From a virus, in IMG/VR virus record IMGVR_UViG_3300050020_000041, positions 1 to 64,000 of that record: DNA of 64,000 bases; one strand, written 5' to 3'. The notes under the pieces are model-generated. The model did no database searches. It had not been told where the DNA came from and saw only the letters and a list, made by a program, of their open reading frames with translations. Shown piece after piece: positions 12,740 through 31,752 of this stretch. Positions within the stretch are counted from its first letter, which is position 1; each line of letters begins with the position of its first letter. Both the position numbers and the translations under genes were made by a program.

Positions 12740-14204
12740 CGATATTAAGGTTATCGAAGAAGCGGGGACAAAGCCCGGAATAATAGAGGTTGCATGGTTA
12801 AGGGGAACTCAGTCACTACTGACGGTTCTTGTAGGCTTGAATCAGGCTGATCAGGACTCGTATTTCTACGTGATACTTGGGTACAAACCGAAAGACCATG
12901 ACATTAAACCCGGATTATATGTCGATAACAAGCGCTCACGATGGTCATGGATTCTTATCCCTGACGAAGGCGGTTCGTTCGACTATAATCTGGTGACCTC
13001 CGTATGGAACAAGCAGAATGTTGCCATGTTCGGGGACATTCAGGGAAAGGGCAAGCTATCGCTTCCGATAGATGCCGTTATAGGGGTGAGTCCGCAGTAC
13101 GCACAAGACCTTTCAATGATTTTTTCCAGTACAATCAGAACAATGCCCGGAATATCCAGACATGATACCGGTGTTGTCGAAGAGTGGGGCAGGGCGGGAA
13201 AGAGTCTGATCAAAACCGAATCCATTGTAGCCGTCAATCTGGGTACGTGGCATGTCTTCCTGTCCAATGGGCAGATGAAGGATTATGTCACTACGTTGGT
13301 AAGACCGTTCCTTAGTCCAGCGACATACCGGAAATGGATCGAAAGATGTTATGTAAGGCAGAACGGACTAAGCATTTCAGATATCGATAGCATCGTTGGT
13401 CCTTTAAGCACCGACCGAGGCAGAAGCGTCGGACATTTCTACCGAATAGGAGAACTCAAAAAGTCAGCACCGGTCTTCGAGCTTTACGAAAAGTTATATA
13501 TGCTTCGTAAGGTGAACAAGATTATCGTAACAACCCAGTCGGAATATGAAGTGAAAGATGTATTCCCGAGTGGCGTTCCTCATATCCTTGATTTCACAGC
13601 CGAATGCAGGAGAGATGTTTATCTGAAGAAGATGAGCCAGACTGCAGTGGCTATTTTTAATTCCCGCGTTGAATCAGCCCCGACCGCTCCGATAGAAGCG
13701 GCGGCTGTAGGATGCATCCCGTTATTGGCTAATTGTACTTGGGTTAATGATACCTTCGGCGCTCATGGATGGAAGTTCATTTACAATTCGATGGATGAAG
13801 CTGCCAAGATGATTGAGGATATTTTCCAGCATTACGAAGAGTACGCCAAGTACGCCAGGGAATTTGTAATCCAGTATTACAATGCTAATGTCAAGGGCGC
13901 GGAGTTCATGTCTTTAATAAGAGGCATCTCGGAAGGGGAGAACACAATCCTGAGAATGTCGGACGATCAGTTCGAACACTTCTGCGATGAATCCAAGCTG
14001 GTAGACTCACTGAAATTTGTAGAGGGACATGAAGGAGTTTCCTGGGACGAAGTAAATACGAAGTTATATATGCCTCGCAACCGCTTAGGGAAGCCAGTAG
14101 TGCTCACAAAATATGATGTACCGGCAATTCTGATTAGGAAATTCAATCTGTGGGACGATCTGAAAAGTCCGTATCCGTTTTATGAATCATGGTCGGAGGC
14201 GTAA
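12687..14204 (+). CDS. GT-B glycosyltransferase-like protein 2
   Basis: The product has 505 residues. Near residues 325-350 it has AIFNSRVESAPTAPIEAAAV, then GCIPLL, the counterpart of the E-x7-E-A-x-A-x-G motif of GT-B enzymes. The surrounding alternation of strands and helices fits a Rossmann fold. The N-terminus is divergent. The start at 12687 lies inside the end of the preceding gene; GTG 12711 is an alternative. It is tightly linked to the deacetylase gene that follows (TAATG). It probably works in the same sugar pathway as its neighbours. Confidence 0.55.
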   Translation: MKIPQRYLVNFLLAKANDDIKVIEEAGTKPGIIEVAWLRGTQSLLTVLVGLNQADQDSYFYVILGYKPKDHDIKPGLYVDNKRSRWSWILIPDEGGSFDYNLVTSVWNKQNVAMFGDIQGKGKLSLPIDAVIGVSPQYAQDLSMIFSSTIRTMPGISRHDTGVVEEWGRAGKSLIKTESIVAVNLGTWHVFLSNGQMKDYVTTLVRPFLSPATYRKWIERCYVRQNGLSISDIDSIVGPLSTDRGRSVGHFYRIGELKKSAPVFELYEKLYMLRKVNKIIVTTQSEYEVKDVFPSGVPHILDFTAECRRDVYLKKMSQTAVAIFNSRVESAPTAPIEAAAVGCIPLLANCTWVNDTFGAHGWKFIYNSMDEAAKMIEDIFQHYEEYAKYAREFVIQYYNANVKGAEFMSLIRGISEGENTILRMSDDQFEHFCDESKLVDSLKFVEGHEGVSWDEVNTKLYMPRNRLGKPVVLTKYDVPAILIRKFNLWDDLKSPYPFYESWSEA

Positions 14205-14920
14205 TGAAAGTATTATTGTTAGCGCCTCATGCAGATGATGAATTGCTGGGGGCTGGCGGGATGTTGCTCCGGATGAAGAATGAAGGTCACGAAGTATTAT
14301 GTGTCCTGGTGGCTTTATCTGATATTCAAATGAACGGTGTCGGTCTGGTTACAAGGGGGACGAGAGGAACTGAGTTTATAAATTCCTGCAAAGTGCTTTG
14401 TACCGAGAAACCCGTCCTGTTGAACTACATCGACTCGAAGCTGGATACAGTTCCCATCAGTGGCATCATTAAAGATCTGGAAGGTGTAATTGAGTTCTTC
14501 CATCCCGACATAGTGCTTATCCCCGAGCCATCGTTTCATCAGGACCATCAGGTCGTGCATAGAGCCGGTATTGCGGCATTAAGACCAATGGGAATCTGGC
14601 AACCAAGTCAGATACTGCTTTATGAAGTACCAAATTCAAGATGGCATAATGCTGAGACAGCGTTCACTCCGAACTATTATGTGGACATACATGATACTAT
14701 CGAGGAGAAGAAGCGTCTGTTCAAGGATGCGTATGCCTCACAGCTAAGATTTATCGTTAGAAATGAAACCGGTATAGAAACTCAGGCTCGATACAGAGGC
14801 TATGAAGCTGGATGTGAATATGCGGAGGCATTTTATTTGCTGAAGGAAGTCAGAAGATGCGCAACAAGTAGAAAAGATTTAATAGATCAGATAATAAAAC
14901 CAAGGGTGGAGAAATGTTAA
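14204..14920 (+). CDS. PIG-L/LmbE-family deacetylase
   Basis: The 238-residue product starts MKVLLLAPHADDELLGAGG, the A-H-P/A-D-D-E zinc motif of the LmbE/PIG-L N-acetylglucosaminyl deacetylase family, and has FHQDHQVVHRA near residue 115, the H-x-D-H motif completing the zinc site. The usual length is 220-260. Family members remove acetyl from GlcNAc-type sugars or conjugates. A further ATG at 14189 is in frame, but 14204 overlaps the previous stop (TAATG), follows CGGAGG and begins directly at the conserved strand. Placed between glycosyltransferases, it likely trims an N-acetyl group on their product. Confidence 0.8.
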   Translation: MKVLLLAPHADDELLGAGGMLLRMKNEGHEVLCVLVALSDIQMNGVGLVTRGTRGTEFINSCKVLCTEKPVLLNYIDSKLDTVPISGIIKDLEGVIEFFHPDIVLIPEPSFHQDHQVVHRAGIAALRPMGIWQPSQILLYEVPNSRWHNAETAFTPNYYVDIHDTIEEKKRLFKDAYASQLRFIVRNETGIETQARYRGYEAGCEYAEAFYLLKEVRRCATSRKDLIDQIIKPRVEKC

Positions 14921-16032
14921 AGGAAATAGTATTTGTACCGATCAGACAGAAAGATCAGCTCGTAACAAGCATATCGAAATTTGCTCAGCTGGAAGCCAAC
15001 ATCCTGAAGACTAAGTATAAGCTGATAATAGCGGGCACTTATGAGGACTGGCAGGTAGAAGGAGTCGAATATACCAACACGGTGTTCACCACGAAAGATT
15101 ATGCATTAGGCGGATGGTCGGAGAGATGGAACCAGTTGGCAAAATATGTCAACAATGATAGACTGTTTTATTTCCATTCGCCGTTCCCCTGTCTGGAGTT
15201 TTACAACCATACGTTTGTGAAGGGTTTCGTATTTCCGAAGATCATGCTGAGATTACATGGTGGTCCGGGTGAAGTAGCGGGCATGGCGGCATTGTATTCG
15301 GCTCTGTTACCCTCGATGTTATTTCCGACTCTGATGGGGAGTAAGGCGGCAGTTGCTAATCAGAAGAAATATTTGCTCAAGGCAGGCATAGTGCCAGCTA
15401 AGTTTGGCAAGGACTGGTATGTTCATCACCCAGCGCCGATATATCTGGACGAAATTGACAAAGCTGAAGCAGTCCCAGAAGAATTTCCCACGATACAGTT
15501 GGCAACGATTCATATGTATCCGGTTATAGTAAGACCTGATAGGCTGCTGCCCGTTATGCAGAAGTTGTATGAATCGGGTGTGAACTTCAAGGGCGTATTG
15601 AATATCGTAGACGAATACGGAGCTGATGATTTCAAGAACCTTCCGTACCTGTTGTATAACAACAAGCCAGAAAGAGAAAAATATTATAGCGAGATAAAAA
15701 GCCGGCATATCTTCCTGTGCTTCTACGCTTACCATACGGGCGGAGTTACGTTCCTTGAAATGATTTATGCGGGCATGGTGGGAGTATTCTGGGAAGCTGA
15801 GTACGTTCATGAGAAACTGCCCGGATATCCGTTCATAGTAAAGACAGAGAATGAAGCAGTCGCAATGATTAAATGGATTATCGACAATTTCGATGAAGCT
15901 AAAGCGAAAATGGAGCCGTTTAAGAAATACATAAAAGATCAGTACAACCCGGATGCCTGGGGGAACAGATTGTTAGAAGTTGTGAAAGATGTGGAAACCA
16001 AATTATTCAAGAGAGGAAACGATGAAGTGTAA
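14914..16032 (+). CDS. GT-B glycosyltransferase-like protein 3
   Basis: The product has 372 residues. The C-terminal portion has RHIFLCFYAYHTGGVTFLEM followed by IYAGMVGVFW, the position of the sugar-nucleotide-binding E-x7-E motif of GT4-like enzymes, although the first acidic residue is missing. This variant may use a different donor or be less active. Earlier, KIMLRLHGGPGEVAGMAAL is a glycine-rich loop of the N-terminal domain. It overlaps the deacetylase stop and the start of the QueC-like gene, keeping one operon. Confidence 0.55.
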   Translation: MLKEIVFVPIRQKDQLVTSISKFAQLEANILKTKYKLIIAGTYEDWQVEGVEYTNTVFTTKDYALGGWSERWNQLAKYVNNDRLFYFHSPFPCLEFYNHTFVKGFVFPKIMLRLHGGPGEVAGMAALYSALLPSMLFPTLMGSKAAVANQKKYLLKAGIVPAKFGKDWYVHHPAPIYLDEIDKAEAVPEEFPTIQLATIHMYPVIVRPDRLLPVMQKLYESGVNFKGVLNIVDEYGADDFKNLPYLLYNNKPEREKYYSEIKSRHIFLCFYAYHTGGVTFLEMIYAGMVGVFWEAEYVHEKLPGYPFIVKTENEAVAMIKWIIDNFDEAKAKMEPFKKYIKDQYNPDAWGNRLLEVVKDVETKLFKRGNDEV

Positions 16033-17377: not shown

Positions 17378-17802
17378 AACCGATTGAAATGATGCAAAGT
17401 ATAGCCCTGAGAGATGCGTTCTTCCATTATCTGAAAGAACATGGCAAGGAAGTTAAATGGCAATGGCTATGTGAATGGGAATTTACAGACGAATATAAGT
17501 TCGGCAGATTATGTCACGCTGAAGACCGCTCTAAAATAATGGGAGTCAAGTTGGAAACAGACAGAATGCTGGCTATGCTCGATTTGCATCGTGAGGACGG
17601 CTTCCTTCATTGCATAAGGGAAGTATGCGAGGCATTACTGGATGAATTAAATGAAATCTTCGAAGGGCAATCGATAAGAATATTGGATATCAAGTTATCA
17701 GAGCCGGTTATAACGACGCCGCTATTCGTAGATAATGATCTGCCCGAGCACCAAGTAAGAACAAAACAGTTTATTTTTATAAAATATAGGACAAGAATAT
17801 GA
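17368..17802 (+). CDS. Hypothetical protein (144 aa)
   Basis: I do not recognise it. It has a Trp-rich stretch (KWQWLCEWEF) near residue 33, a helical middle with His/Cys residues and a beta-rich end. It overlaps the QueC-like gene by ten bases and is coupled by ATGA to the first ParB-like gene, so it belongs to the same putative modification module. Confidence 0.45.
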   Translation: MSLEPIEMMQSIALRDAFFHYLKEHGKEVKWQWLCEWEFTDEYKFGRLCHAEDRSKIMGVKLETDRMLAMLDLHREDGFLHCIREVCEALLDELNEIFEGQSIRILDIKLSEPVITTPLFVDNDLPEHQVRTKQFIFIKYRTRI

Positions 17803-18542
17803 GCGAGAACATAGTTGACGGCATGACTAAAATAGTTCAGCTGGACGTAGATCTGATAGATGAGAACGAATGGAATCCAAATTTGATGAGTGATGCCAAG
17901 TTTAACAAGTTAACAGAAGAAATTGAAACCATGGGAATGATGGATCCGATTCAGGTAGTTCCTTTGGAAAATGGCAGATACCGAATACTCGGTGGAGCGC
18001 ATAGGTTCAACGCCTGTTTAATATTAGGCTTTGAGAAAATACCAGCGATTATACTGGATGATCCGAAATTCCAGGATCTTGACTACCAGAAACTTTTGAC
18101 AACCCGATTAAATTTGATCCATGGTAAAATGACTCGGGATAAATTCAGTGCGTTATATGAAGACCTAGCCAAACGGCATTCCGACGAAGTTATCCGGGAC
18201 TCGATGGCTCTTATCGATAAAAACGAATGGGATCAGATGAAGAAAGAATTACTGATTAACATGAAGGAGCTTCTACCGCCAGGTTCACCGTTACTTGATA
18301 ACTTCGAGGACACAGTGAAGGAACTTAGAACCCTTGATGATATGACAAAATTATTGGAAAGCATATTCCATAAAAAAGAGAAAGGGGAGAAGTTCAATAA
18401 GATCCTCGCATTCGGAACTGGTGGCGGTAAGGTCGTATACTTCTCCATAGATGATGAAATATGGGGAGCTTTACAGAAGTTAAAGTCTATAGCTGACACT
18501 ACCGACATCAAGATGGATGAAATTCTTGATAAAGCTATGTAA
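17799..18542 (+). CDS. ParB-like nuclease-domain protein, copy 1
   Basis: The product has 247 residues. Residues about 10-90 are a ParB N-terminal domain: WNPNLMSDAKF at the start (compare N-P-N/R in ParB), IQVVPLENGRYRILGGAHRF (the G-G-A/E-x-R nucleotide/active-site loop) and CLILGFEKIPAIIL. There is no ParB HTH domain. The C-terminal half is helical and ends with a beta segment. Such stand-alone domains bind or hydrolyse CTP/ATP or nick DNA, and in IbrAB- and Dpd-type systems they pair with PP-loop enzymes. A QueC-like PP-loop gene lies two genes upstream. Tandem paralogue at 18698. Confidence 0.7.
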   Translation: MSENIVDGMTKIVQLDVDLIDENEWNPNLMSDAKFNKLTEEIETMGMMDPIQVVPLENGRYRILGGAHRFNACLILGFEKIPAIILDDPKFQDLDYQKLLTTRLNLIHGKMTRDKFSALYEDLAKRHSDEVIRDSMALIDKNEWDQMKKELLINMKELLPPGSPLLDNFEDTVKELRTLDDMTKLLESIFHKKEKGEKFNKILAFGTGGGKVVYFSIDDEIWGALQKLKSIADTTDIKMDEILDKAM

Positions 18543-18557
18543 TGCACTTAGATTCGA

Positions 18558-18586
18558 AAGACGCATATTCCCGTGGATTGCGTCTT
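18558..18586 (+). terminator. Hairpin between the two ParB-like genes
   Basis: AAGACGCA (18558-18565) and TGCGTCTT (18579-18586) form a perfect 8-bp stem with a 13-base loop, followed by CTTGATTT. A second short stem (CCGGT...ACCGG) lies near 18613-18630. It may be a weak terminator or attenuator that separates expression of the two paralogues, in a 155-base gap. Confidence 0.4.
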
Positions 18587-18697
18587 CTTGATTTAGCCAG
18601 CCCTTCCCGGTGTTCTTACCGGTCTGATACCTGCAAGCCTCAATGATAATACTGACAAATAGATTTATTCACACGACGAAATTGATTGCAGGATAAT

Positions 18698-19435
18698 ATG
18701 ATTGACCACGATATACGATTTGTAGCGATAACACAGATAGAGGAGAACGAATTTAATCCGAATTCCATGGATGGCAAGGCATTCGAGAGATTACTTAAAG
18801 AAATACAGACATCCGGATTTATTGCAGCCATACAGGTCGTACCGTTGGATAATGGGAAATTCAGGATTATAGGCGGAGCACACCGATATAAAGCCGCCCT
18901 GAAACTGGGTTTTCATGAACTTCCCTGCGTGGTGCTGGCAGATGCTCAGTTCAAGTCAGAGGACGTACAAAAATTCTTGACAGTGAAACTTAACATGCTG
19001 TCGGGAGAATTAGATCCTGACAAATTCCGAATCTTATATGAGGAAATGGCTGAGAAGTACGGAGAAGAATCGTTACAGGACCTCTTCGGATTCACTGATG
19101 AGACTGAATGGGAGGCGGTAACCAAGGCTATTAAGAGAGAATTAAAAGATAACGGCTTCACGGAAGAGCAAATTGACAAGGCATGGGAAGAAGCTGGCGA
19201 AGATAAGTCCATAGAGAATTTAAGTCGCATCCTGAATGGGATATTTTCAGAGAACGGGGAAACCCTGAATAGCCGTGGCTACATGATATTCGATTTCGAG
19301 GGGAGCAAGATGTTTTTCATGGATGTGGACAAGAAAGTATTCAAGTTTTTTGATGAGATGCAGATCAACGAAGATCCAGCGCAGTTGAACGGAAAATTAT
19401 TAGAAGTATTGCAGAAGGCAGCCGGCAATAGCTAG
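18698..19435 (+). CDS. ParB-like nuclease-domain protein, copy 2
   Basis: The 245-residue product is clearly paralogous to the previous gene: NEFNPNSMDGKAF versus NEWNPNLMSDAKF, FRIIGGAHRY versus YRILGGAHRF, and similar C-terminal regions (RGYMIFDFEGSKMFFMDVD). It has the ParB N-terminal domain only. ATG 18698 is chosen because AGGA at 18690-18693 precedes it; a TTG at 18686 is in frame. Two diverged copies side by side suggest either a heteromer or two specificities. The partner genes are the QueC-like enzyme upstream and the glycosyltransferase-kinase downstream. Confidence 0.7.
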   Translation: MIDHDIRFVAITQIEENEFNPNSMDGKAFERLLKEIQTSGFIAAIQVVPLDNGKFRIIGGAHRYKAALKLGFHELPCVVLADAQFKSEDVQKFLTVKLNMLSGELDPDKFRILYEEMAEKYGEESLQDLFGFTDETEWEAVTKAIKRELKDNGFTEEQIDKAWEEAGEDKSIENLSRILNGIFSENGETLNSRGYMIFDFEGSKMFFMDVDKKVFKFFDEMQINEDPAQLNGKLLEVLQKAAGNS

Positions 19436-19480: not shown

Positions 19481-22066
19481 ATGTATAGAGGGTTGAAGTG
19501 GGCTATAGGCATTATTACGTGGAGCAGACCGGCAGTATTTAAGGAATTCATGGATACGCTGGCGGCATGCGCGGATGTCAACAGTTGCGACAAAATCATA
19601 GTGGTGGAAGATGCTTCCGGTAACAAAGAGAAATATGCTCTCCTTGAGGAGTTCAAGAAAAGATTCCCGAATGCCGTAGTGCAATTCGCGGAGAAAAACG
19701 GTGGCGTATCAGCCAATTCAAATCGAGTCCTGAATGTATTAAAGTTGTATGACTTCGGATTCCTGCTAAATGATGATTATATAAAGATTAAGAGTCCTGT
19801 CTTCAAGAAGTACATGGACGCATTCCTGGCAACGGGAATTCATTGTTTTACCCAGAACGTCAATGTCAGGGGCAAAGTTATCGAGATGAATGGAGTCCAG
19901 TTGAGGGTTTCAGGCAAGAGCTACGGCACGTGGATAACGACCACCAAGCAAATGCTCCGGACAGTGGGCGGCCTGGATAGAAGAATGGGGAGATTTGGCT
20001 TCGAACACAGATTATTCGTACTGAAAGCTAAGAAAAAGGGGTTTATAGGAGATCCGAATACGTTCACGTTCTACGATATTGCCAATTCGTCAGCTTACCT
20101 CGCGATTAACAATGCCTCAGATGAATCCACACAGGGTACGAGCCGGTATACTGGGTTCAAAGACAAGTGGGAGCAACTAAGGAAGGACGTTTACAAGCCA
20201 TATTTCGGCGATGTTATCGATACGGCTCTGGACATAGTGGATCCGAAAGATGAAGTTCCGGTGACACCAGGTAAAAATGTAATGTCACGGGGAATATCTG
20301 ACAAAACGCTGGCAGACCAGATTAACTCCTTATGGAGCGCAGAGGACGTACCACTGTATTTCAAGGGGGATAAGAATACTTATTTCGCATTGTCCAAGAA
20401 AAACAAAGAGATGACAGCTTTGGATCTAGTCAGCGACAATGCCCATGCCGAGAAGGTAATAGCAGCGCATCAGGAGAAGTTTGAAAAATTCGATTTCTCA
20501 GGTCTGAAGGGAGATAAAAATAGGGGTGTTTTGTTTTATGCAATAGCTCTGTACTGGGGAAAGATGTTCCCAAGAGTTATCCAGGACAAGATGATTAACT
20601 ACCTGAAGGAAACATCCTTCAACCAGTCCAGATATGGGTGGCTGGCGTTCCTTGAGATCCCGTTAGGTTCAGCGACCAGATACTTCACTGAGTTACTCGC
20701 AGATAATCCTGCTCTCTACAATACGTGGGTTACGAAGACAGTCGAACTGCTTTATCCGGTAAAACAGCTTACGGATTTCCTGAAGAATTACAATCTCCCT
20801 TTGAGAGTCACGCCGACAGTAATGCCGATCCAGAAAATCAAATTTATGAAGATACTTTATTCAGCCAAGTTGAAGGAGATGAATCCCACTCTGGCTGAAA
20901 ACAGTGTGCAGCGCATATTAAATGAAGCCATCAAGGTCTCTCCGTTCAAAACAGAGGACTTGTTCACACAGTTCCTAACAGACCAGATGCAGAAGGAGGA
21001 AGAAGCGGACGCTAAGGGAGATATCAACGGAAAAGAATTCAAGGTGAATTTCCTCGGGCTGATTTCCTCTGTAAAAGATGGTTCGGTGGATGCTGATAAA
21101 ATAGTTACTGCGGCGACTCTGGATGTCATGAAGGCTGGCGTCAAGATGGATATTCCCCTGGATGAACAATTAAAATTTGCAAAAGCGGCCGAACTGGTTT
21201 GTACCGATGGAGCCGGCAGCTTTGAAAAAATCAAGATCGTCAACGGTGGCGCCAATACAACGTTCAAGGCTGAAGTAGGCGGAACAGATTTCTTTTTTAA
21301 GATAAGACATCACAGTCAGACCGAAACTGGTCCGATCAGCCAAAGCACAGCTGATTTCTTTAATAGAGTCGGCGTAGGTACTCCGATGGTTAAGCAGATC
21401 AAGCTTAGCGGAGGGGAGTTAAATGTAAAGGGTGTAGAAGTTAGAAACGAAAAGAAACAGAATCAGATATTCGATGCCGAGATGGCTGAATTCTTACCGA
21501 GTTTCATCGTATGTCAGGATTTGGCTAAACCAAAGGCTAAGGGGCAGGATGCAGCAATGGCGATAATCCAGAAGATCTCCGGCGATGACATAAAAAGATT
21601 GGTAGTAGCGGACTTCATGTCCTATCAGCAGGACAGGTTTACCGACAACGTGGGAATAATTAAAGATAGCGGTAAACTGATTGCCCTCGATAACGACTTG
21701 GCTTTCGGATTCATGGACCGCAAACCGATCCTGTCATTTATGATAAGGGAGCTGGCGCTTGATCCCCCCAAGAAGTATGCAAAAGATGAACGCTGTTATA
21801 GCTGGGTTGAAAGAGTATTCATGCCTGCGTTCGATTACAGAACCTATGGTGAAGTCGGCGTCAACTACGAACCCGAGATAATCGGGATGCTGACAGAGTT
21901 CAGCGACAACGAAGATGGGATGCTGGATTCCTTCTGTCCGACCGGCACAAGACCGAATATCAAAGAAGCCATCAGGCTGAATTTGAGGAACATGATGGAC
22001 GTGGGTTTTGAGGGTGCGATTATGAAATACAAATCCGAGATAATGAATAACGTATTGAAAAAATAA
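19481..22066 (+). CDS. Glycosyltransferase (GT-A) fused to PI4K/HipA-like kinase domain
   Basis: The product has 861 residues. Residues 1-210 form a family-2-type GT-A domain: IIVVEDASGN, KNGGVSANSNRVL, LLNDD (acidic metal-binding motif, about 95-99) and GGLDRRMGRFGFEHR, the G-G-x-D...E-D/H acceptor region. Residues 280-560 are mainly helical and unrecognised. Residues about 585-861 resemble PI3/4-kinase- and HipA-fold enzymes: a glycine-rich GGANTTFKAEVGGTDFFFKI strand pair, a catalytic QQDRFTDNVGI loop (D-R-x3-D-N, compare type II PI4K) near 715, and LIALDNDLAFG near 733 as the metal-binding motif. All catalytic residues look intact. The substrate is unknown; coupling sugar transfer and phosphorylation in one chain is unusual. 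Confidence 0.65.
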   Translation: MYRGLKWAIGIITWSRPAVFKEFMDTLAACADVNSCDKIIVVEDASGNKEKYALLEEFKKRFPNAVVQFAEKNGGVSANSNRVLNVLKLYDFGFLLNDDYIKIKSPVFKKYMDAFLATGIHCFTQNVNVRGKVIEMNGVQLRVSGKSYGTWITTTKQMLRTVGGLDRRMGRFGFEHRLFVLKAKKKGFIGDPNTFTFYDIANSSAYLAINNASDESTQGTSRYTGFKDKWEQLRKDVYKPYFGDVIDTALDIVDPKDEVPVTPGKNVMSRGISDKTLADQINSLWSAEDVPLYFKGDKNTYFALSKKNKEMTALDLVSDNAHAEKVIAAHQEKFEKFDFSGLKGDKNRGVLFYAIALYWGKMFPRVIQDKMINYLKETSFNQSRYGWLAFLEIPLGSATRYFTELLADNPALYNTWVTKTVELLYPVKQLTDFLKNYNLPLRVTPTVMPIQKIKFMKILYSAKLKEMNPTLAENSVQRILNEAIKVSPFKTEDLFTQFLTDQMQKEEEADAKGDINGKEFKVNFLGLISSVKDGSVDADKIVTAATLDVMKAGVKMDIPLDEQLKFAKAAELVCTDGAGSFEKIKIVNGGANTTFKAEVGGTDFFFKIRHHSQTETGPISQSTADFFNRVGVGTPMVKQIKLSGGELNVKGVEVRNEKKQNQIFDAEMAEFLPSFIVCQDLAKPKAKGQDAAMAIIQKISGDDIKRLVVADFMSYQQDRFTDNVGIIKDSGKLIALDNDLAFGFMDRKPILSFMIRELALDPPKKYAKDERCYSWVERVFMPAFDYRTYGEVGVNYEPEIIGMLTEFSDNEDGMLDSFCPTGTRPNIKEAIRLNLRNMMDVGFEGAIMKYKSEIMNNVLKK

Positions 22067-22434: not shown

Positions 22435-23214
22435 ATGGTAAAGATCAACCCGGAAGGCGCAGGGACGCCAAGTTTTAATGGAGTGTTTAGGAGACCGTCT
22501 GCCAAGAAACCGGAGAGCCATCAGGCATCCCTGGAGACTTTAACATGTTTTCCTGAATTGAAAGCCAGGGTACAGGCGGGCTGGCCGTCCCAGAGAGTAG
22601 CGGATTACATCGAGACCACTTATCCAGCAGAATATGCAGGTCTGGGCATGGTCAAGGGAGAGTTAATCGATCACCTGAATTCGTTCAGAAAAGCATTGAC
22701 GCCACTGGAGACGGTGGCTATTCGTATGCCGGCTGAAGTAATCAAGGCAAAAGAGAAGATTGATGCAGGTCTGGATATCATGGCCGAGATGCAGGAGCTT
22801 TATGCGATCCAGAAGGGGCGTATCAATATTGATGTCGGTACAGAAAAGAAATTAAACAAGTTGTTTAAGACAACAGGAAATGAAATTGCGATAGCCGCAG
22901 CTCTGTTAAGAGATCTTGCTGCGATAATGGGAGATCTGGGAGTGAACAAGGGTAATCCGGGTGAAGAAGCGGCAGTAAGAAAACAGTTAATAACCGATTT
23001 CGGTTTGAAGTATGGGAAAGACTCGGTAGCCAAAGTGCTTAACGATCCAAGAGCAGTTTCCAAGGTATTAGGAGTGGCTGAGAGTTTATTCAAGTCCATA
23101 AGGGCTGGGGATGTGGCAGGTCTTCTTGCGGAAGTCCAGGCAGAAGAAAAGCCGGCGATGATAGAATTGCAAGTAATAGAAAAGAATGAAAAAGTATTAG
23201 AGGATGTGGTATGA
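22435..23214 (+). CDS. Possible terminase small subunit
   Basis: The product has 259 residues. Residues about 45-65 (GWPSQRVADYIETTYPAEYAG) look like a helix-turn-helix. The centre is long amphipathic helices (EKIDAGLDIMAEMQELYAIQ), as in the oligomerisation core of small terminases. Its position two small genes and one cargo gene before the large terminase supports this call, but there is no diagnostic motif. Its stop overlaps the start of the T9SS-tagged gene (ATGA), so the two are translated as a pair. Confidence 0.4.
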   Translation: MVKINPEGAGTPSFNGVFRRPSAKKPESHQASLETLTCFPELKARVQAGWPSQRVADYIETTYPAEYAGLGMVKGELIDHLNSFRKALTPLETVAIRMPAEVIKAKEKIDAGLDIMAEMQELYAIQKGRINIDVGTEKKLNKLFKTTGNEIAIAAALLRDLAAIMGDLGVNKGNPGEEAAVRKQLITDFGLKYGKDSVAKVLNDPRAVSKVLGVAESLFKSIRAGDVAGLLAEVQAEEKPAMIELQVIEKNEKVLEDVV

Positions 23215-23978
23215 AATGGTCAATATGGTTTATAGTGCTTTTGTCATATCAGGTATGCGCTCAGGATCTTTCGCTTCGGAAAAATAGCCCATGTAGAGGT
23301 GCTGGCGATACCGTAAAGGTAAATGGACAACGGATTAAGACGGATATACTGGGAAATCCAGTGCCTTATAATCATCCGGATCTTGGAGCTTATCAGTATC
23401 AGGAGCCGCTACCAGTGCAACTGATCTCTTTTAAGGGGAAAACTTTAAGAGACAATTACGTTGAGCTTGTGTGGGTGACAGCGACGGAAGTAAATTTTCA
23501 TGGATTTGAGATAGAAAGAAAACTTTGGATGGGCAGTCCCTGGGAGAAGATCGGCTTCGTGGCGGCCCAAGGGAATAGCAATAAGGGTAAAGAGTATATG
23601 TTCTCAGATAAGCTCTCCATGGCAGGGGTTATTGCTTATCGCCTGAATCAGGTGGACAACGATGGTGGCTCGGTACATTCGAATATTATCGTGGTGTCAA
23701 TGTTACCCAAGGAATTTACCGTCTCGAACTACCCGAATCCATTTAATCAAGAGACGACGATCAGATATTCGCTCCCCTATGACTGTAAGGTAAGACTGAC
23801 GGTCTATAATGTCATCGGGAGTAAGATAGAGTCATTCCCAGATGAAATGCGCACACAGGGCAGTTACGAGGTCAAATGGCGCGGTCGGTACGCCGGCGTG
23901 TATATCCTCGCAATGACGACCAAGCGGGCAAACGGAAATCAGCATACGGCAGCAATCAAAATGGTGTTACTGAAATGA
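23211..23978 (+). CDS. Secreted protein with T9SS type A sorting domain
   Basis: The product has 255 residues. A signal peptide covers residues 1-17 (hydrophobic core IWFIVLLSY, cleavage after VCA). Residues 26-64 match the end of a choice-of-anchor/parallel beta-helix domain (SPCRGAGD...DLGAYQYQ). Residues 67-165 form a beta-sandwich beginning LPVQLISFKG with TATEVNFHGFEIER, common in Ignavibacteria surface proteins. Residues 170-255 are a type IX secretion C-terminal domain: NYPNPFNQETTIRYSLP, VYNVIG, YAGVYIL and a final KMVLLK. It would cross the inner membrane by Sec and the outer membrane by host T9SS. It is coupled by ATGA on both sides to phage genes, so it is a settled phage gene, probably taken from a host. 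Confidence 0.8.
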   Translation: MKWSIWFIVLLSYQVCAQDLSLRKNSPCRGAGDTVKVNGQRIKTDILGNPVPYNHPDLGAYQYQEPLPVQLISFKGKTLRDNYVELVWVTATEVNFHGFEIERKLWMGSPWEKIGFVAAQGNSNKGKEYMFSDKLSMAGVIAYRLNQVDNDGGSVHSNIIVVSMLPKEFTVSNYPNPFNQETTIRYSLPYDCKVRLTVYNVIGSKIESFPDEMRTQGSYEVKWRGRYAGVYILAMTTKRANGNQHTAAIKMVLLK

Positions 23979-24103
23979 ACAAGTCTTTACGGGTTATAGG
24001 GTTTGGGCTAACAACGATTGGGGCTGTCGGTTTGTTTTCGACGGTTCTAATTCTGATAGCTATTGCAACGCATTATTCGACATTAAATGAACTAATAAAA
24101 TAA
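23975..24103 (+). CDS. Small single-span membrane protein (42 aa)
   Basis: ATG 23975 overlaps the stop of the T9SS-tagged gene (ATGA). The product has a short basic start (MNKSLR) and one hydrophobic segment of about 23 residues (VIGFGLTTIGAVGLFSTVLI and on), then a polar tail. It could be a holin-like or superinfection-related peptide, or a membrane partner of the upstream secreted protein. The sequence supports only a single transmembrane helix. Tight coupling argues that it is real. Confidence 0.5.
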   Translation: MNKSLRVIGFGLTTIGAVGLFSTVLILIAIATHYSTLNELIK

Positions 24104-24112
24104 GGAAGTACT

Positions 24113-24187
24113 ATGAAAGACCTAATAAAAGAAATGACTGAGATTATTCAAAGTCTTGAAAGAATCGCGACTAATAAAAAGAAATAG
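24113..24187 (+). CDS. Micro-protein (24 aa), recurrent helix motif
   Basis: ATG 24113 follows AAGGAAG with good spacing; TAG is at 24185-24187. The whole product is one amphipathic helix beginning MKDLIKEMTEIIQSLERI. Very similar helices occur in the micro-protein at 27373 and at the start of the HTH protein at 30528, which argues that this is translated and not chance. The function is unknown. It sits immediately before the large terminase start, so it could also act as a leader peptide that sets terminase translation. Confidence 0.4.
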   Translation: MKDLIKEMTEIIQSLERIATNKKK

Positions 24188-24192
24188 TCCCA

Positions 24193-25380
24193 ATGATAGA
24201 ACTCATTGATGGTCGTAATATAAGTAAACAGACTCCGGAGGAGGTACAGAAACTTCTAAAGAGGGATGTAAGGTCACTTTCACCTGAAGAGATGGAAGTG
24301 ATGCAGCTTATTATGGCTGAAATGACCGGCGGTAAAACTGGGTTACTTGAGCTAATGAACGAACTAGAGTTCCAAGAACCCATGGTAGATATCGAAACAT
24401 GGCTGACAGATCCGTACCACTTCGGAAAAGTGCATAACCTCTGGCCCAAGTTAATCGATGACATGATAGAGATGTTCAATGGAGAGTATTATGAGGTTAT
24501 TTTAACTGGTTCACTCGGCTGGGGCAAGACCTACATGGCTAAAATAGCAGCCTGCAGAGTGTTCTATGAGATGAGCTGTTTACGCAATCCGCAGAAGTCT
24601 TTTGGATTGGCTCCTGATTCCCTGATAGCATTCCTGGCGATTTCATTGTCAGAGCAGACTGCTCGTAAAGTAATCTTCGAAGATCTTCAGGGTATGCTCA
24701 CGATGAGTCCGTATTTCAACGAGAAGTTCAAACCGAAACTGACTCAGAAGGAAATAAGATTCCCGAATAACGTATGGGCGACTCCAGCTTCCAGTACGGC
24801 AAATGCAGGTATAGGAAGTAACGCAATCGGTGCAATCATGGATGAGTCGAACTTCTTGGGAGCTATGAGCAAGGAAATGAAGGCTTCACATGCCCGTCAT
24901 GGTCATGTAGATAATGCAGAGTTACTATATGCTCAGGTAAGTCGTAGAATCAAGTCCCGGTTTAACAAGTTTGGAAAAATGCCAGGGAAACTGTTTCTGG
25001 TTTCATCCAAAAGAACCACGACCGATTTTACTGAAAGAAGAATTGCTGAGGCAAGAGAAGATCCCAACGTATTCGTAAGAGAATATTGCTTAACTGGCGA
25101 CACTCCGATTAAGATCCCGCTGAAAGGCATAATTGCTATTAAAGATTTAGTCGGCGTGGAGAATTTTAGGACCGTATCGGTAGATCCAGCCACAGGTCAG
25201 GGCGTTCTGGGTAAAGGGCATTCAGCTCAGCGGACAGGAGTTAATGTCCCTGTTTATAAAATCACGATGGAAGATGGCTCTGTAGTGAAAGCTACGAAGG
25301 AGCATCCGTTCCTTATGAACGATTTAACTTATGTGGAACTTCAGAACTTAAAGGTGGGCGATGAATTGTTCAGCTTTTAA
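24193..25380 (+). CDS. Large terminase, N-terminal ATPase half plus split-intein N part
   Basis: The product has 395 residues. Residues 1-298 are the packaging ATPase: Walker A GSLGWGKT (106-113), Walker B IGAIMDE (212-218) and a coupling motif VSSKRTTTD near 270. At Cys299 the sequence turns into an intein N-terminal domain: CLTGDTPIKI (block A), then VVKATKEHPFLMND (block B) and LKVGDELFSF, after which it stops. The C-terminal nuclease half is encoded separately at 26193 with the matching intein C part. Trans-splicing would give a TerL of about 649 residues; T4 gp17 has 610. It powers DNA translocation into the prohead. The downstream gene overlaps the last 20 bases. Confidence 0.85.
   Translation: MIELIDGRNISKQTPEEVQKLLKRDVRSLSPEEMEVMQLIMAEMTGGKTGLLELMNELEFQEPMVDIETWLTDPYHFGKVHNLWPKLIDDMIEMFNGEYYEVILTGSLGWGKTYMAKIAACRVFYEMSCLRNPQKSFGLAPDSLIAFLAISLSEQTARKVIFEDLQGMLTMSPYFNEKFKPKLTQKEIRFPNNVWATPASSTANAGIGSNAIGAIMDESNFLGAMSKEMKASHARHGHVDNAELLYAQVSRRIKSRFNKFGKMPGKLFLVSSKRTTTDFTERRIAEAREDPNVFVREYCLTGDTPIKIPLKGIIAIKDLVGVENFRTVSVDPATGQGVLGKGHSAQRTGVNVPVYKITMEDGSVVKATKEHPFLMNDLTYVELQNLKVGDELFSF
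25087..25380 (+). other. Split intein, N-terminal fragment (Int-N, 97 aa)
   Basis: It begins at Cys (25087-25089), directly after extein residues VFVREY. Block A CLTGDTPIK and block B with the T-x-x-H-like ATKEHPFL are present, as is a terminal K-V-G-D-E-L strand that normally precedes the endonuclease or linker site of mini-inteins. The fragment size (97) is typical of natural split Int-N domains (about 90-105). It pairs with the 36-residue Int-C at 26193. Confidence 0.85.
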
Positions 25381-25852
25381 CATAGCGGAAGAGTCGCCCA
25401 AGAACCATCTGGAAATGATATCGAAACTTTATACTGGCGATTCAGATCTGTATGCATGGCAGGCGAAATTAGTGAAGGCGGTGAAGGTTGTCTCGGTAGA
25501 GAAGATCCCTGAAATAGCCAATGACGTTTATAGGCTGATCAAAATGTTCCAGGCGAAGCAGTGTTACCAGAATGCTTATCAGGTGGCTTCGCACATATCG
25601 GGAGTCGAATATGTCGAGGGCTTCGCAGATATAGTCGGAATACCGATTGACCATGCTTTCAACGTCTACAAAGGTCAGTATTTCGATGTGACGGGCGAGC
25701 TGGTATTGAAAAGAGAAGTTGAGAAGGACGTTTATTTCAAGGTTATGACGTATAGCCACAGCGAAATGAACAAGTTGGCGGTAGCGACAGGCACGTATGG
25801 TGGCTATCTGAAGGCGTATTACAAGTTATTTATTAAAAAAGAAGCAGCATAA
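25361..25852 (+). CDS. Gene inserted between terminase halves, orf1 (163 aa)
   Basis: It overlaps the Int-N stop by 20 bases, so it is translationally linked; a later ATG at 25415 is possible. The product has Cys68 (QCYQNA), His98 (IDHAFN) and Asp109 (YFDVT) in the order Cys-His-Asp, with the phrase VEGFADIVGIPIDHAF found in phage hypothetical proteins. This layout suggests a papain- or transglutaminase-like fold, but that is inference. No LAGLIDADG, GIY-YIG, HNH or Vsr-like endonuclease motif is seen, so it is not an obvious homing endonuclease. Confidence 0.5.
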   Translation: MNCSAFNIAEESPKNHLEMISKLYTGDSDLYAWQAKLVKAVKVVSVEKIPEIANDVYRLIKMFQAKQCYQNAYQVASHISGVEYVEGFADIVGIPIDHAFNVYKGQYFDVTGELVLKREVEKDVYFKVMTYSHSEMNKLAVATGTYGGYLKAYYKLFIKKEAA

Positions 25853-25861
25853 GGAGAAGTT

Positions 25862-26191
25862 ATGAAAGAGGTTAAAATAAGTTCGCTGGCAGAAGATTTT
25901 GAAATACTGGGTGGGAAAGTTCCGGAAGATTTGATCCCTTCGATTATGGAGGAAAAGAGATTGGCGGAGAAAGGAGTTTATTCGAAATTGAAACTGGGCG
26001 ATACTATTGTTGGTGATGATGGGAAACCAGTGTTGAACGCCGGCACTATAGAAGTATTGGTATTGGACAATGCCACCATGGAGAAATTAAAGGATGGTAG
26101 CATCAGATTTGTCGGGGAATTTAATGGCAAGCAATCGCAATGGATATTCTCTGCGAAAGAACTCAAGGCAATAGCGGGATTCTTGAAATAA
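25862..26191 (+). CDS. Gene inserted between terminase halves, orf2 (109 aa)
   Basis: I do not recognise it. A strong SD (AAGGAG) precedes it. The product is small with a helical first 40 residues and beta-rich LGDTIVGDDGKPV, AGTIEVLVLDN and GSIRFVGEFNGKQSQWIF, possibly a small beta-barrel. It has no nuclease motif. The stop is one base before the start of the C-terminal terminase half, so all four cistrons are one transcription unit. Confidence 0.5.
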   Translation: MKEVKISSLAEDFEILGGKVPEDLIPSIMEEKRLAEKGVYSKLKLGDTIVGDDGKPVLNAGTIEVLVLDNATMEKLKDGSIRFVGEFNGKQSQWIFSAKELKAIAGFLK

Positions 26192-26192
26192 C

Positions 26193-26300
26193 ATGAAGCG
26201 CATCGCAAAAATAGAATTTGATGGTAATGAAGATGTCTATGATATCGAGGAAGATAGCTGTCATAATTTCACGCTGGCAAATGGATTAGTAGTCCATAAC
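26193..26300 (+). other. Split intein, C-terminal fragment (Int-C, 36 aa)
   Basis: It contains block F VYDIEEDSCHNFTLANGL and block G VVHN followed by Ser+1 in the extein: the penultimate His and terminal Asn needed for Asn cyclisation, and a Ser nucleophile. The length of 36 matches natural split Int-C fragments (about 35-40). It starts with its own Met and a basic MKRIAKIEF lead, as in other naturally split inteins. Confidence 0.85.
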
Positions 26301-27356
26301 AGTCAGTGGGGAGCTAAGGATGCTAAGATATTCATGCCTGAGAGGTTTAAGGTGCTGGTCGGTAATTCAGTATTATCTTCTAAGGTATTGGAAGATGGAG
26401 AAGATGTCACTGAATACGAGGGTATGGAAGAAGTTCAGATTATCGATGTACCCATGGACTTCTATGATGATTTTATGAGAGATACCGATACAGCATTGAG
26501 AGATCTTGCCGGAGTAAGTACGGTGGCTATTACGCCGTTTATAAGGAACCGTAAGAAGATCATGGATGCAGTAGATAATACTTATCAGCATCCGTTTACT
26601 CAGGAAGTCTGGGATATGACTGACAGAGGTAAGTTCCTGACAGAAGCATTATTTAAGATTAACGAGTTTGGTGAAAGAGTACCAAGATTTCACCCGGAGG
26701 CATCCCGTCATGTCCATATTGACGCTTCATTGAGGGGAGATGCCACTGGGCTAGCTATCGGGCACATTTACGGATACAAAGAGATCCGGAAAAAGGTCGG
26801 TCCGATAGTAACGGTGGAAACACGCCCGCTGATTCAAATCGACCTGATGTTAAGGATTCATCCAAGGATGGGAGAAGACATAATTTTCCAGGATATCAGG
26901 AAGTTGATATACGCTTTGCATGAAATGGGAATGCCCATAAGATACATATCGATGGATTCGTACCAGTCTGCGGACAGCATCCAGGCGTTCAAAGCCCGCG
27001 GATACGAGTCGGAAGTAGTGTCGGTAGATAGACCGATGAAGGCTTATGATACATTGAAGCAAACTTTATATGAAGACCGTTTGAAAATGTACCCGTATCA
27101 GCCGGCTCAGGAAGAATTAAGAAGATTAGAATTTAATGCATATAAGGGAAAAGTCGACCATCCCGATGATTATTCAAAGGATGTAAGCGACGCAATCGCT
27201 GCGGTAGTATTCACGCTGGCGACGAAATACCCAGGTGAAGGCACTTCATTTTATTCGGAGTCATCGAGAAGTAAGCCGGGCGAAAGAATAAGTGCTTCGG
27301 CGGAGGCTGAGGATGCGGGCGATTCAGGTTTTGATGGGTTTGTTCAAGTAGATTAA
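26193..27356 (+). CDS. Large terminase, split-intein C part plus nuclease half
   Basis: The product has 387 residues. Residues 1-36 are the intein C-terminal domain ending in LANGLVVHN with Ser37 as the +1 extein residue. From Ser37 (SQWGAK) the terminase resumes. Residues about 175-345 form the RNase H-like headful nuclease: HVHIDASLRGDATGLAIG (first acidic strand), YISMDSYQSADSIQAFKARG (second Asp) and DDYSKDVSDAIAAVVF (third Asp cluster). It would cut concatemeric DNA during packaging after being spliced to the ATPase half. The tail is Ser/Glu-rich. No strong SD is visible, so translation may depend on coupling to orf2. Confidence 0.85.
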   Translation: MKRIAKIEFDGNEDVYDIEEDSCHNFTLANGLVVHNSQWGAKDAKIFMPERFKVLVGNSVLSSKVLEDGEDVTEYEGMEEVQIIDVPMDFYDDFMRDTDTALRDLAGVSTVAITPFIRNRKKIMDAVDNTYQHPFTQEVWDMTDRGKFLTEALFKINEFGERVPRFHPEASRHVHIDASLRGDATGLAIGHIYGYKEIRKKVGPIVTVETRPLIQIDLMLRIHPRMGEDIIFQDIRKLIYALHEMGMPIRYISMDSYQSADSIQAFKARGYESEVVSVDRPMKAYDTLKQTLYEDRLKMYPYQPAQEELRRLEFNAYKGKVDHPDDYSKDVSDAIAAVVFTLATKYPGEGTSFYSESSRSKPGERISASAEAEDAGDSGFDGFVQVD

Positions 27357-28705: not shown

Positions 28706-30466
28706 ATGGCAGGAATTAAGAATTTAGGCTTTATAAAGTTACTGTTCAGCGATCAGACTGACACGCCGGCAATAGATCCAAAAACAGGTCAAGCTCCAGT
28801 ACGAGTAGCAGCAGGCGGAGCAGCGTCATCGTTGTATGTCAGACACGGCTATGAAGACTTGTATGAACATTTGAAGGTAAGTCAGGATCTGATCACCCGA
28901 TATATCGATTACGAAAATATGGATGATAGCGATCCCATCATAGGAAGCGCATACGATATTTACGCTGATGATGCAACCCAGATGGATTATAAGCTGAAGA
29001 AAACCATGTGGGTGGACTCGCTTGATGATACTACGAGGACGTACCTGAATAACTTCCTTGATAATACCCTGAAGGTAGAAGAGAATATTTGGGAACAAGC
29101 CAGAACGATTGCAAAATACGGTAATGATTTTGAAGCCATCCTGTATGATGATAAGGGCGTTAATGGTCTTGACTTTATTAGTCCAGCTATTGCCAGGAGA
29201 TATGAAGTCGGTGGGAAGACAGCATTTGGTGTCGATTACCAGGGCAAGTTCAATTACAAAGATCAGGAAGTTATTGATGCGGTAGCCGGGAATGTCAGAC
29301 ATCAGGAGTCCTCGACCTTCTTCGATAACTGGGAGATGATTCATTTCAGACTCAGGACCAAGAATCGCGGAAGCAGATATGGATTCGGATTAGCCGAGAA
29401 CGCAAGATGGGCATGGAAACGGTTACAGTTGTTAGAGGACGCCACGATACTGTATAAGATTACGAGATCTCCCAACAGACTGGTTTATTATGTAAATACT
29501 GGCAACAAGTCACCGAAGGAATCCAAAGCCTTCATGAAAGAACTTCAGAGAGAGTATCGAAAGAAGAGTTATATCAATCCAAGAACGGGCAAGTTGGAGT
29601 TCTCAACGAATCCGCTCGCTCAGCAGGAAGATATCTGGGTTGGTGTACGCGACTCGAAAGATCCGACCAGAATAGAGAATCTTCCAGCACTGGATTACCA
29701 GAGCCTTGATGAATTGTCGTATTACAGGAATAAAGAATTCGCGGGATTAAAGATTCCCAAGAGATTCCTGACCTACGATGAAACGGCAGATTCCAGAACA
29801 GCTGGTTCCAACGAAGATATCCGTTTCGCAAGAACGGTATTAAGGCTTCAGAGGGAGCTGCTGGTCGGTTATAATAAGATTATCGGTGTAGATTACTCGA
29901 TAAGGGGCGTCGACTACAGAAAATTGGACTATACTCTTAAAATGGCTGTCCCATCGACGGCATTTGAGATAGCCAATCTGGAAGTAGAAAATACCAAGGT
30001 GGCTCTTGCCGCTCAATTAGATCCGTTCGTCTCTAAGGAATGGATTTTAACAAGGATACTGGGTATGGCGGAAGCAGATGCTAAGGTAGTGCTCAGACAG
30101 AAGACCAGTGAGGTAAGTGCGGATCTGAAGGCTCAAAACGCTGCATTACAGGCAAGCCCACCAGCAGAAGAATCCACATACACTCGTGGCAACATGTTAA
30201 GGGAAGCGATGTTGGTTGGTAGAGAGGATAAATTACGTAATTCCCGTGAATGGGCGGTAAGGGAGAAAAATCTCGACAAGAGATTAAATGAAATCATGGA
30301 CAGTAACTATGTCAATGGTGAAAAATTTAAGGATATGAAAAAGCTCATGTCTCAGATCCTTGAGATGCAGAAAGGTATCAAGATTTCAGGAAAGAGGTCA
30401 AGTTTCGGTGGTGGCGTGGAAGATGATTCAGAAGGTAGAGTAGATGCGTCGAAGTATTTCGAATGA
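28706..30466 (+). CDS. Portal protein (gp20-like)
   Basis: The product has 586 residues; T4 gp20 has 524. The N-terminal part has IGSAYDIYADDAT, the conserved D-I-Y-A-D-E-A-T stretch of T4-type portals, then DNTLKVEENIWEQARTIAKY and a GNDFEAILYDD strand. The clip region follows (NPRTGKLEF), and RFLTYDETADSR fits the segment before the long stem helix. Twelve copies would form the head vertex pore through which terminase pumps DNA. It starts one base after the SWIM-finger gene, in canonical order before prohead core, protease and capsid genes. Confidence 0.85.
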   Translation: MAGIKNLGFIKLLFSDQTDTPAIDPKTGQAPVRVAAGGAASSLYVRHGYEDLYEHLKVSQDLITRYIDYENMDDSDPIIGSAYDIYADDATQMDYKLKKTMWVDSLDDTTRTYLNNFLDNTLKVEENIWEQARTIAKYGNDFEAILYDDKGVNGLDFISPAIARRYEVGGKTAFGVDYQGKFNYKDQEVIDAVAGNVRHQESSTFFDNWEMIHFRLRTKNRGSRYGFGLAENARWAWKRLQLLEDATILYKITRSPNRLVYYVNTGNKSPKESKAFMKELQREYRKKSYINPRTGKLEFSTNPLAQQEDIWVGVRDSKDPTRIENLPALDYQSLDELSYYRNKEFAGLKIPKRFLTYDETADSRTAGSNEDIRFARTVLRLQRELLVGYNKIIGVDYSIRGVDYRKLDYTLKMAVPSTAFEIANLEVENTKVALAAQLDPFVSKEWILTRILGMAEADAKVVLRQKTSEVSADLKAQNAALQASPPAEESTYTRGNMLREAMLVGREDKLRNSREWAVREKNLDKRLNEIMDSNYVNGEKFKDMKKLMSQILEMQKGIKISGKRSSFGGGVEDDSEGRVDASKYFE

Positions 30467-30954: not shown

Positions 30955-31752
30955 ATGAAAAAAACACATGTTCTAACCTCATTGGACGAAGACTTAATAG
31001 CATTAGGTCTGGTTACTCCAATCGTGGAAGCAGTTGTTCCCGCAGTAGTCCCCGCAGTTATTCCCGCAGTAGTCCCCAAAGTTATTCCCGCAGTTGAACC
31101 AGCTTCAAATCTTGATGAAATCAAGATACTCAAATTGAAGACCGGCTCGGCAGCTCGTTTAGCTAAGAAAAAAGCTAAGAGATACTACAAACAGAACAGA
31201 AGCAAACTGAAATCTAAAGCAAAGAAATTCAGACACTCTTCTGCCGGTAAAAAAAGTCTATTCAAAAGAGCGAAAGCAATCAAAAGATTAGGCATTGCTA
31301 AAATCACCGCAATTCACAAATCCGGAAAAAGAATCTCTCTTGCAGCTTCCGTCCAGGATGAAGCATTAGAAGTTTTACAAAAAATGTCCCAGATACTCGC
31401 TCTTGTTGAGGAAAATGTGACACCATTGTTTGAAAGTGAAGATGCATTGGTTCAGGAATACATTGAGTTCATAGCTGACGGCTCAGAAGAAATATCTGAA
31501 GTCATCGAAGATCTCGAAACTGAAATCGAGGAAGCTACCGAGGAACTCGACGAAGAAGCAGTTGAAGAAGTATTATACGAACTCGCAGAGGAAGTATACG
31601 AAATGCTCGATACCTATGCCGACTTAATCGCAATCAACGAGGATGCAGATCCTGAAGTTGTTCCTGCGGTTGTCCCAGCAGTAGTTCCTGCGGTCGTTCC
31701 TGCAGTAGTTCCCGCGGTTGTTCCCGCTGTAGAACCAGCAGCAGTCGTTTAA
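30955..31752 (+). CDS. Prohead core protein with VVPA repeats
   Basis: The product has 265 residues. It starts in the slot of T4 gene 67/68. Residues 27-50 are six VVPA-type tetrapeptides. Residues 60-115 are very basic (RLAKKKAKRYYKQNRSKLKS), resembling T4-type prohead core proteins. Residues 130-230 are acidic and helical. The last 30 residues are seven more VVPA/VEPA units. It would be an internal scaffold packed in the prohead and cleaved by the protease encoded two genes later. T4 gp67 is only 80 residues, so this is much larger and differs in having the repeats. Confidence 0.5.
   Translation: MKKTHVLTSLDEDLIALGLVTPIVEAVVPAVVPAVIPAVVPKVIPAVEPASNLDEIKILKLKTGSAARLAKKKAKRYYKQNRSKLKSKAKKFRHSSAGKKSLFKRAKAIKRLGIAKITAIHKSGKRISLAASVQDEALEVLQKMSQILALVEENVTPLFESEDALVQEYIEFIADGSEEISEVIEDLETEIEEATEELDEEAVEEVLYELAEEVYEMLDTYADLIAINEDADPEVVPAVVPAVVPAVVPAVVPAVVPAVEPAAVV
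31033..31104 (+). repeat. 12-bp coding repeats, block 1 (six VVPA-like units)
   Basis: Six in-frame 12-base units encode VVPA, VVPA, VIPA, VVPK, VIPA and VEPA near the N-terminus of the prohead core protein. Units differ mainly at third codon positions, so the protein pattern rather than the DNA is being kept. Confidence 0.85.
31657..31740 (+). repeat. 12-bp coding repeats, block 2 (seven VVPA-like units)
   Basis: Seven in-frame 12-base units encode six VVPA and a closing VEPA at the C-terminus of the same protein. Third positions vary (GTT/GTC/GTA, CCT/CCC/CCA), suggesting selection on the peptide. Both blocks end in VEPA. Confidence 0.85.

Follow-up and report, generated by a model that had tools for sequence, protein, structure and literature searches.

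A probable type IX secretion cargo encoded in the packaging operon of a T4-like phage, with apparent origin in a shortened surface protein of the host

Proteins that carry the sorting domain of the bacterial type IX system (T9SS) have been described in phage genomes before. Cryophage carries three variable T9SS-tagged cargo genes, for which its authors proposed a hijack of the host T9SS with possible superinfection exclusion (Nat Commun 2020, PMC7468147), and T9SS-domain proteins have also been reported near crAss-BACON genes (PMC6949934). A further case is found in a cultured virus, Flavobacterium phage immuto, whose gene immuto35A_15, annotated as ‘cohesin domain-containing protein’, encodes a cohesin followed by a T9SS C-terminal domain (CTD; 45 bits) in 243 aa. 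Here we analyze a gene of this kind within a window of 64,000 nucleotides, positions 1 to 64,000 of virus record IMGVR_UViG_3300050020_000041, which extends over 77,779 bases (77.8 kb) in total.

The window gene resembles those of Cryophage in that the protein carries a T9SS type A sorting domain and varies among phage variants. It differs in that the Cryophage passengers (an endoglucanase, a GH39 and a PA14 protein) are encoded in metagenomic islands, whereas the window passenger is nearly deleted and its slot lies in the terminase operon, where cassette duplication and signal-peptide replacement are readable at base level. With immuto35A_15 it shares the design of a small phage-encoded protein composed of apparent signal peptide, passenger and T9SS CTD; the immuto gene, however, has a cohesin passenger, lacks a linker of the window type and occupies another genome position, where genes for a small TM protein and a CsgG-like protein come next. 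New relative to the Cryophage and crAss-BACON reports are the apparent swappable cassette form and the presence in several unrelated phages. An earlier sequence-only reading of this DNA had judged such a phage protein to be very unusual, a view that finds no support in view of both of these reports, of immuto and of the cargoes in four huge phages and in further viral contigs described below.

A cargo gene coupled to packaging genes

By gene content, the source record belongs to a true T4-like phage: it encodes TerL, a T4-type portal (E 1e-46), a head protease, a major head protein, a tape measure, RecA and a CHAP endolysin-like protein. The terminase is related to those of many cultured phages, and the portal matches those of Microcystis phage Mel-JY01, Rhodothermus phage RM378 and, as the best cultured-phage match, immuto. 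The cargo gene (23211–23978, + strand, exact ORF boundaries; 255 aa, P0001) is preceded by a 259-aa gene (phrog_35167; 22435–23214, +) that occupies the place of a small terminase gene. On the 3′ side of the cargo gene lie, in order, a 42-aa ORF that apparently spans the membrane once (23975–24103, +), a 24-aa ORF (24113–24187, +) and the large terminase in two parts (24193–25380 and 26193–27356, both +); further along are the portal protein of the T4 gp20 type (28706–30466, +) and the major head protein (33549–34946, +). As the sequence-only reading had stated, the cargo gene overlaps both neighbours by ATGA (23211–23214 and 23975–23978), a coupling which suggests that it would use the operon transcript rather than a promoter or terminator of its own. 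Its place between the upstream gene and the large terminase marks it as a presumptive phage moron. GC, GC3 and codon use of the gene are inside the range of the other genes of this phage, so that it is not a very fresh arrival.

The same reading had raised the danger that host DNA had been misassembled into the phage contig. Although the closest non-phage relatives of the cargo are bacterial, the same gene with the same junctions recurs in the same slot of two independent viral contigs (L002 and L003) and, as noted, its composition lies within the phage range; misassembly or host contamination was rejected as exceedingly improbable.

Identification of the protein is carried by its CTD (residues 168–255; 23712–23975, +), assigned from profiles, motifs and a structural model. 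A complete T9SS type A cargo had been claimed for this packaging region, and its proposed check against TIGR04183/Por_Secre_tail was borne out by the first profile (NCBIfam TIGR04183, 25.4 bits vs a cut-off of 23, residues 174–238) and narrowly missed by the Pfam profile PF18962 (26.5 bits, E 8e-6, 0.5 bit below its 27-bit cut-off). The CTD motifs NYPNPFN (173–179), AGVY (228–231) and C-terminal KMVLLK (final K) are invariant or conserved across alignment A5. At the opposite end, a putative signal peptide (about residues 1–18, MKWSIWFIVLLSYQVCAQ; 23211–23264, +), delimited by sequence, AlphaFold helix and hydropathy, combines a basic N-terminus with a hydrophobic segment (hydropathy 2.3 over 9 residues) and a CAQ cleavage-like site, and looks like a predicted Sec signal peptide. 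The next stretch (residues 18–64; 23262–23402, +) aligns to the C-termini of two cellular proteins, L196 and L198, and scores below the cut-off with the choice-of-anchor Q profile NF041518 (19.8 bits vs 25, profile positions 15–58 of 58); it appears to be the remnant of a last beta-helix coil of this type rather than a family member. An Ig/Fn3-like linker domain (residues 68–165; 23412–23705, +), defined by model and structure comparison, connects it to the CTD.

An AlphaFold model built with nine aligned sequences placed a helix at residues 3–22, left residues 23–67 at low confidence and mostly disordered, and resolved the Ig/Fn3-like domain and the CTD sandwich mostly at pLDDT 80–94, with no folded passenger other than the Ig-like linker. 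Of the ‘beta domains’ that had been ascribed to Ignavibacteria surface proteins, the Ignavibacteria-like C-terminus held up, while their number came down to this one linker and the CTD. The best solved Foldseek match to the model was latent PorU of Porphyromonas gingivalis (6za2, E 9e-8), itself a T9SS protein with a CTD, and VIA-align against 6za2 935–1157 returned Z 11 with an rmsd of 13 across 171 residues, the two domains being joined flexibly. 6za2 appears among many Fn3 pairs in the VIA-align list, which makes the fold as such generic and leaves the identification to the profile match. As read from its sequence, the protein seems to be little more than an export signal and a host-type T9SS tag.

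This is the one sorting domain in the entire phage record, and profile searches of the record found neither SprA nor PorV; any T9SS export would therefore depend on the host machine. Export of the window cargo through the host T9SS is very likely.

Descent and cassette exchange

As the sequence-only reading had anticipated, the relatives of the cargo are of Ignavibacteria type: 158 of the 294 genomes in the class of an Ignavibacteria MAG match it at E 1e-25 or better. In the best match, residues 16–255 of P0001 align with the final 236 residues of a long beta-helix protein, L196 (41% over 244 columns, E 9e-60; 1103-aa frame, 736 aa of it covered), and the C-terminus of a second beta-helix protein, L198, aligns likewise (39%). 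The phage and cellular proteins share the C-terminal order of last coil, LPVEL-type linker, Ig-like domain and YPNPFN CTD at 39–41% identity. In the cellular proteins, however, several hundred residues of beta-helix come ahead of that tail, and in their place the phage protein shows no more than a putative signal peptide. The phage gene thus corresponds to a host-type T9SS cargo minus its beta-helix. In Ignavibacteria MAG G002 both SprA and PorV are present and sorting-domain matches number at least 150, and homology of the cargo gene points to a T9SS-bearing member of the Ignavibacteria, or a near relative, as the probable phage host. We consider it likely that the window holds a phage-encoded T9SS cargo that is exported by the host system and goes back to a host surface protein in truncated form; the earlier observation was confirmed and its interpretation supported in part.

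Close relatives of the terminase and upstream gene were found only in L002, L003 and, more distantly, L004. Related phages had been proposed as a check on the gene, and it is indeed present in the same slot in L002 and L003, with a signal peptide differing from that of the window; in L004 the slot is empty and the upstream gene overlaps the terminase directly, an absence that, in so distant a relative, does not polarise gain vs loss. Over 9.1 kb, L003 and the window share 97.6% identity, including the flanks of a mosaic patch (23211–23283, +) in which the signal-peptide segment falls to ~67% before the following DNA rises to 99.7%. The 72 bases that open the cargo gene contain about 24 differences (one third; binomial P 3e-21), against 99.7% identity in the rest of the gene.

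The second contig, L002, carries two tandem cargo genes. The second is L003-like, while the first encodes a 350-aa protein (P0002) with another signal peptide, a passenger of ~140 aa and a linker and CTD 72% identical to those of the window, and with 27.0 and 32.7 bits it exceeds both sorting-domain cut-offs (TIGR04183 and PF18962). A low-confidence model shows this passenger as all-beta, with pLDDT near 50 over that part of the protein, and no PDB sequence matched it. A 74-bp direct repeat (87.8%) comprising the upstream gene's tail and the signal-peptide start precedes each L002 cassette (L002:2127–2200 and 3232–3305), its window counterpart lying by alignment at 23155–23228 (+), and a 19-codon remnant of the end of the upstream gene is still readable between the two cargo genes. 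Tandem copies, repeats and remnant together indicate tandem duplication and recombination of the cassette.

A comparison of the linker and CTD of the paralogues (P0002 vs window type) gave dN 0.20 and dS 1.9, a ratio of ~0.11 that is rough, with dS near saturation, and that indicates apparent purifying selection on this part of the protein. In the tree the phage paralogues group by themselves (support 0.90) and away from cellular sequences, which implies that the purifying selection acted, at least to some extent, after capture or within one donor lineage; part of the paralogue divergence could predate capture.

These values bear on whether the gene is simply a captured host fragment being lost and of no use to the phage, a reading to which the missing beta-helix and the restriction of the gene, in this slot, to one close phage group lend some weight. 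A search with a home-made HMM is also in keeping with it, having found no T9SS CTD in the sequence flanking a further 80 T4-like portals (at most 10 kb per side, and less for many); the same HMM recovers the immuto gene, which lies elsewhere in the immuto genome than the portal region. A decaying gene would not, however, be expected to keep an intact frame in three contigs together with its ATGA coupling, to have its signal peptide replaced by one that is still signal-like, or to show dN/dS of ~0.1, and other phages have separately acquired such cargoes. We regard decay as improbable.

Cargoes in other phages

Sorting domains scored over the cut-off in four huge-phage records. G020, a 210-kb T4-like virus, has a 303-aa cargo with linker and CTD of the window type directly after the MCP gene, separate from the window clade in the tree, and G007 has two T9SS cargoes. 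To judge from these sequences, phages have acquired T9SS cargoes more than once and with different passengers. The sorting domain was not found in five more cultured phages from this host group, namely Maribacter phage Molly_1, Rhodothermus RM378 and Cellulophaga phi14:2, phi38:1 and phi18:1. A tblastn search with a hand-typed CTD consensus against 50,697 phage records returned no match. As both immuto and the huge phages are recovered with the profile, this indicates that BLAST is too weak for the CTD. For a set of 59 stretches containing the NYPNPFN motif we give no prevalence, because some are chance hits (e.g., L025, L033/L043, L034, L054, L063 and L066) and others are possibly host DNA at prophage edges or in miscalled contigs.

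The passengers of other phage T9SS cargoes, where cohesin or weakly matched choice-of-anchor C or F5/8-type domains are found, raise the alternative that the phage supplies an adhesin or lectin. Infected cells would then adhere to one another or bind glycans or particles, altering phage spread, and swapped passengers would change the target. The all-beta passenger modelled at low confidence in L002 and the variable enzymes and PA14 protein of Cryophage (PMC7468147) would fit such a role, but the window copy, as modelled, has no folded passenger besides the Ig-like linker, and for this phage we hold the adhesin reading to be rather doubtful.

In immuto (L094), G007 (L180), L060, L047 and G008–G013, a small TM protein comes after the phage T9SS cargo, either at once or with a few genes between, as does a CsgG-like protein wherever the sequence extends far enough. 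The cargo of this module is a cohesin protein in some cases, and in some a DNA/RNA non-specific endonuclease lies close by. The CsgG-like proteins, so labelled by eye, had no Pfam or NCBIfam match, and a query search found no recognisable CsgG-like gene in the window phage. In the marine viral contigs G008–G013 (L057:10365–14905 being G013), an 877-aa T9SS cargo is followed directly by a PorV/PorQ-family protein (91–101 bits, cut-off 90); these phages may bring a T9SS component along with the cargo. Hypothetical proteins from immuto and related phages match a gene that lies just upstream in L057. Outside phages, five T9SS sorting-domain ORFs, distributed over five contigs (including L009, L020 and L022), occur in a 0.9-Mb CPR MAG titled Candidatus Komeilibacteria (G001), and some of their passengers look protease-like by eye. 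Neither SprA nor PorV was matched in G001, and the ORFs would represent contamination or cargo without a translocon.

Possible benefits to the phage

From what is known of the T9SS family, from which every step of the mechanism is taken, we propose that the window cargo would be made late, alongside the packaging genes, exported by Sec and docked through its CTD at the host T9SS (SprA/PorV), after which PorU-type sorting would display the Ig-like domain and a short N-terminal tail on the infected cell. There it could cover or compete with T9SS-delivered receptors, such that the infected cell and its debris would stop taking up phage. Recombination of the cassette would swap signal peptides and passengers while keeping linker and CTD.

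In Flavobacterium columnare, T9SS/gliding mutants are phage resistant (PMC9233685), so that the T9SS or its deliveries are needed for infection there, and a receptor-covering T9SS cargo could by extension exclude further phage or shield progeny from debris. We hypothesize that masking of or competition with receptors, giving superinfection exclusion or progeny protection, is the most likely benefit, and we put it forward tentatively. Late expression would be a poorer fit to classical early superinfection exclusion than to protection of progeny from debris, and the near-absent passenger counts against masking, as little is left to bind or mask a receptor. A possible parallel in working mode is Llp of phage T5, a phage lipoprotein that acts in superinfection exclusion and is not exported by the T9SS. 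Like Llp and similar proteins, the window cargo might block receptor use from the outer surface and protect progeny; the likeness is one of function only, and no sequence relation is claimed. Nothing in the analysis pointed to a role in lysis, which the sequence-only reading had listed among its suggestions.

The same loss of passenger admits another reading, in which the CTD is the active part: a nearly passenger-less cargo would act as a decoy, tying up the host translocon or the sortase and leaving the surface short of adhesins and receptors that the T9SS delivers. Linker and CTD appear to be under purifying selection despite the deleted passenger, and T9SS loss leads to phage resistance in F. 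columnare (PMC9233685), both as a decoy would have it. A decoy would, however, require a high dose, and the extra passenger of ~100–140 aa in the L002 tandem paralogue and in the G020 cargo would be superfluous; we consider a decoy possible but on balance unlikely. Whatever the benefit, if phages do clothe infected cells by way of the type IX system of the host, they would control the host surface along a route hardly studied. The question is testable at once, since immuto, cultured on Flavobacterium sp. LMO8, carries such a cargo, and the stripped-down form in the window would be a natural minimal T9SS delivery module.

On a broader and more speculative view, which we think has only a small chance of being right, each phage variant would paint its host with a different T9SS-displayed coat. 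Phages of the Fibrobacterota–Chlorobi–Bacteroidota group would then possess a surface-antigen cassette system with a constant T9SS tail in the late operon and a signal peptide and passenger swapped at the upstream-gene-tail repeat, to which some marine phages would add a PorV-family protein.

Several other features of the window phage and its relative were observed. Upstream of the cargo gene lie glycosyltransferase-like genes and a PIG-L deacetylase (11258–16032 and 19481–22066), a group that might modify the host surface where T9SS cargoes attach. Two adjacent genes with ParB_N domains, about 247 aa each, occupy 17799–19435, and an ORF at 30955–31752 has repeated VVPAVVPAV motifs and the most deviant codon usage among the genes checked. 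The large terminase is split over two genes (24193–27356) by a candidate split intein, the first gene (24193–25380) encoding an N-extein of 298 aa and an N-intein of 97 aa (junction between EY and CLTGD...) and the second (26193–27356) a C-intein of 36 aa and a C-extein of 351 aa (junction between ...VVHN and SQW), with two other ORFs (25361–25852 and 25862–26191) between the halves. Once joined, the exteins can be aligned over their whole length with the terminase of L004, which is uninterrupted; the L004 portal gene (L004:4419–6704) contains an apparent intein of its own (CLTLDTKIPL ... HNFALDVGIFVKN).
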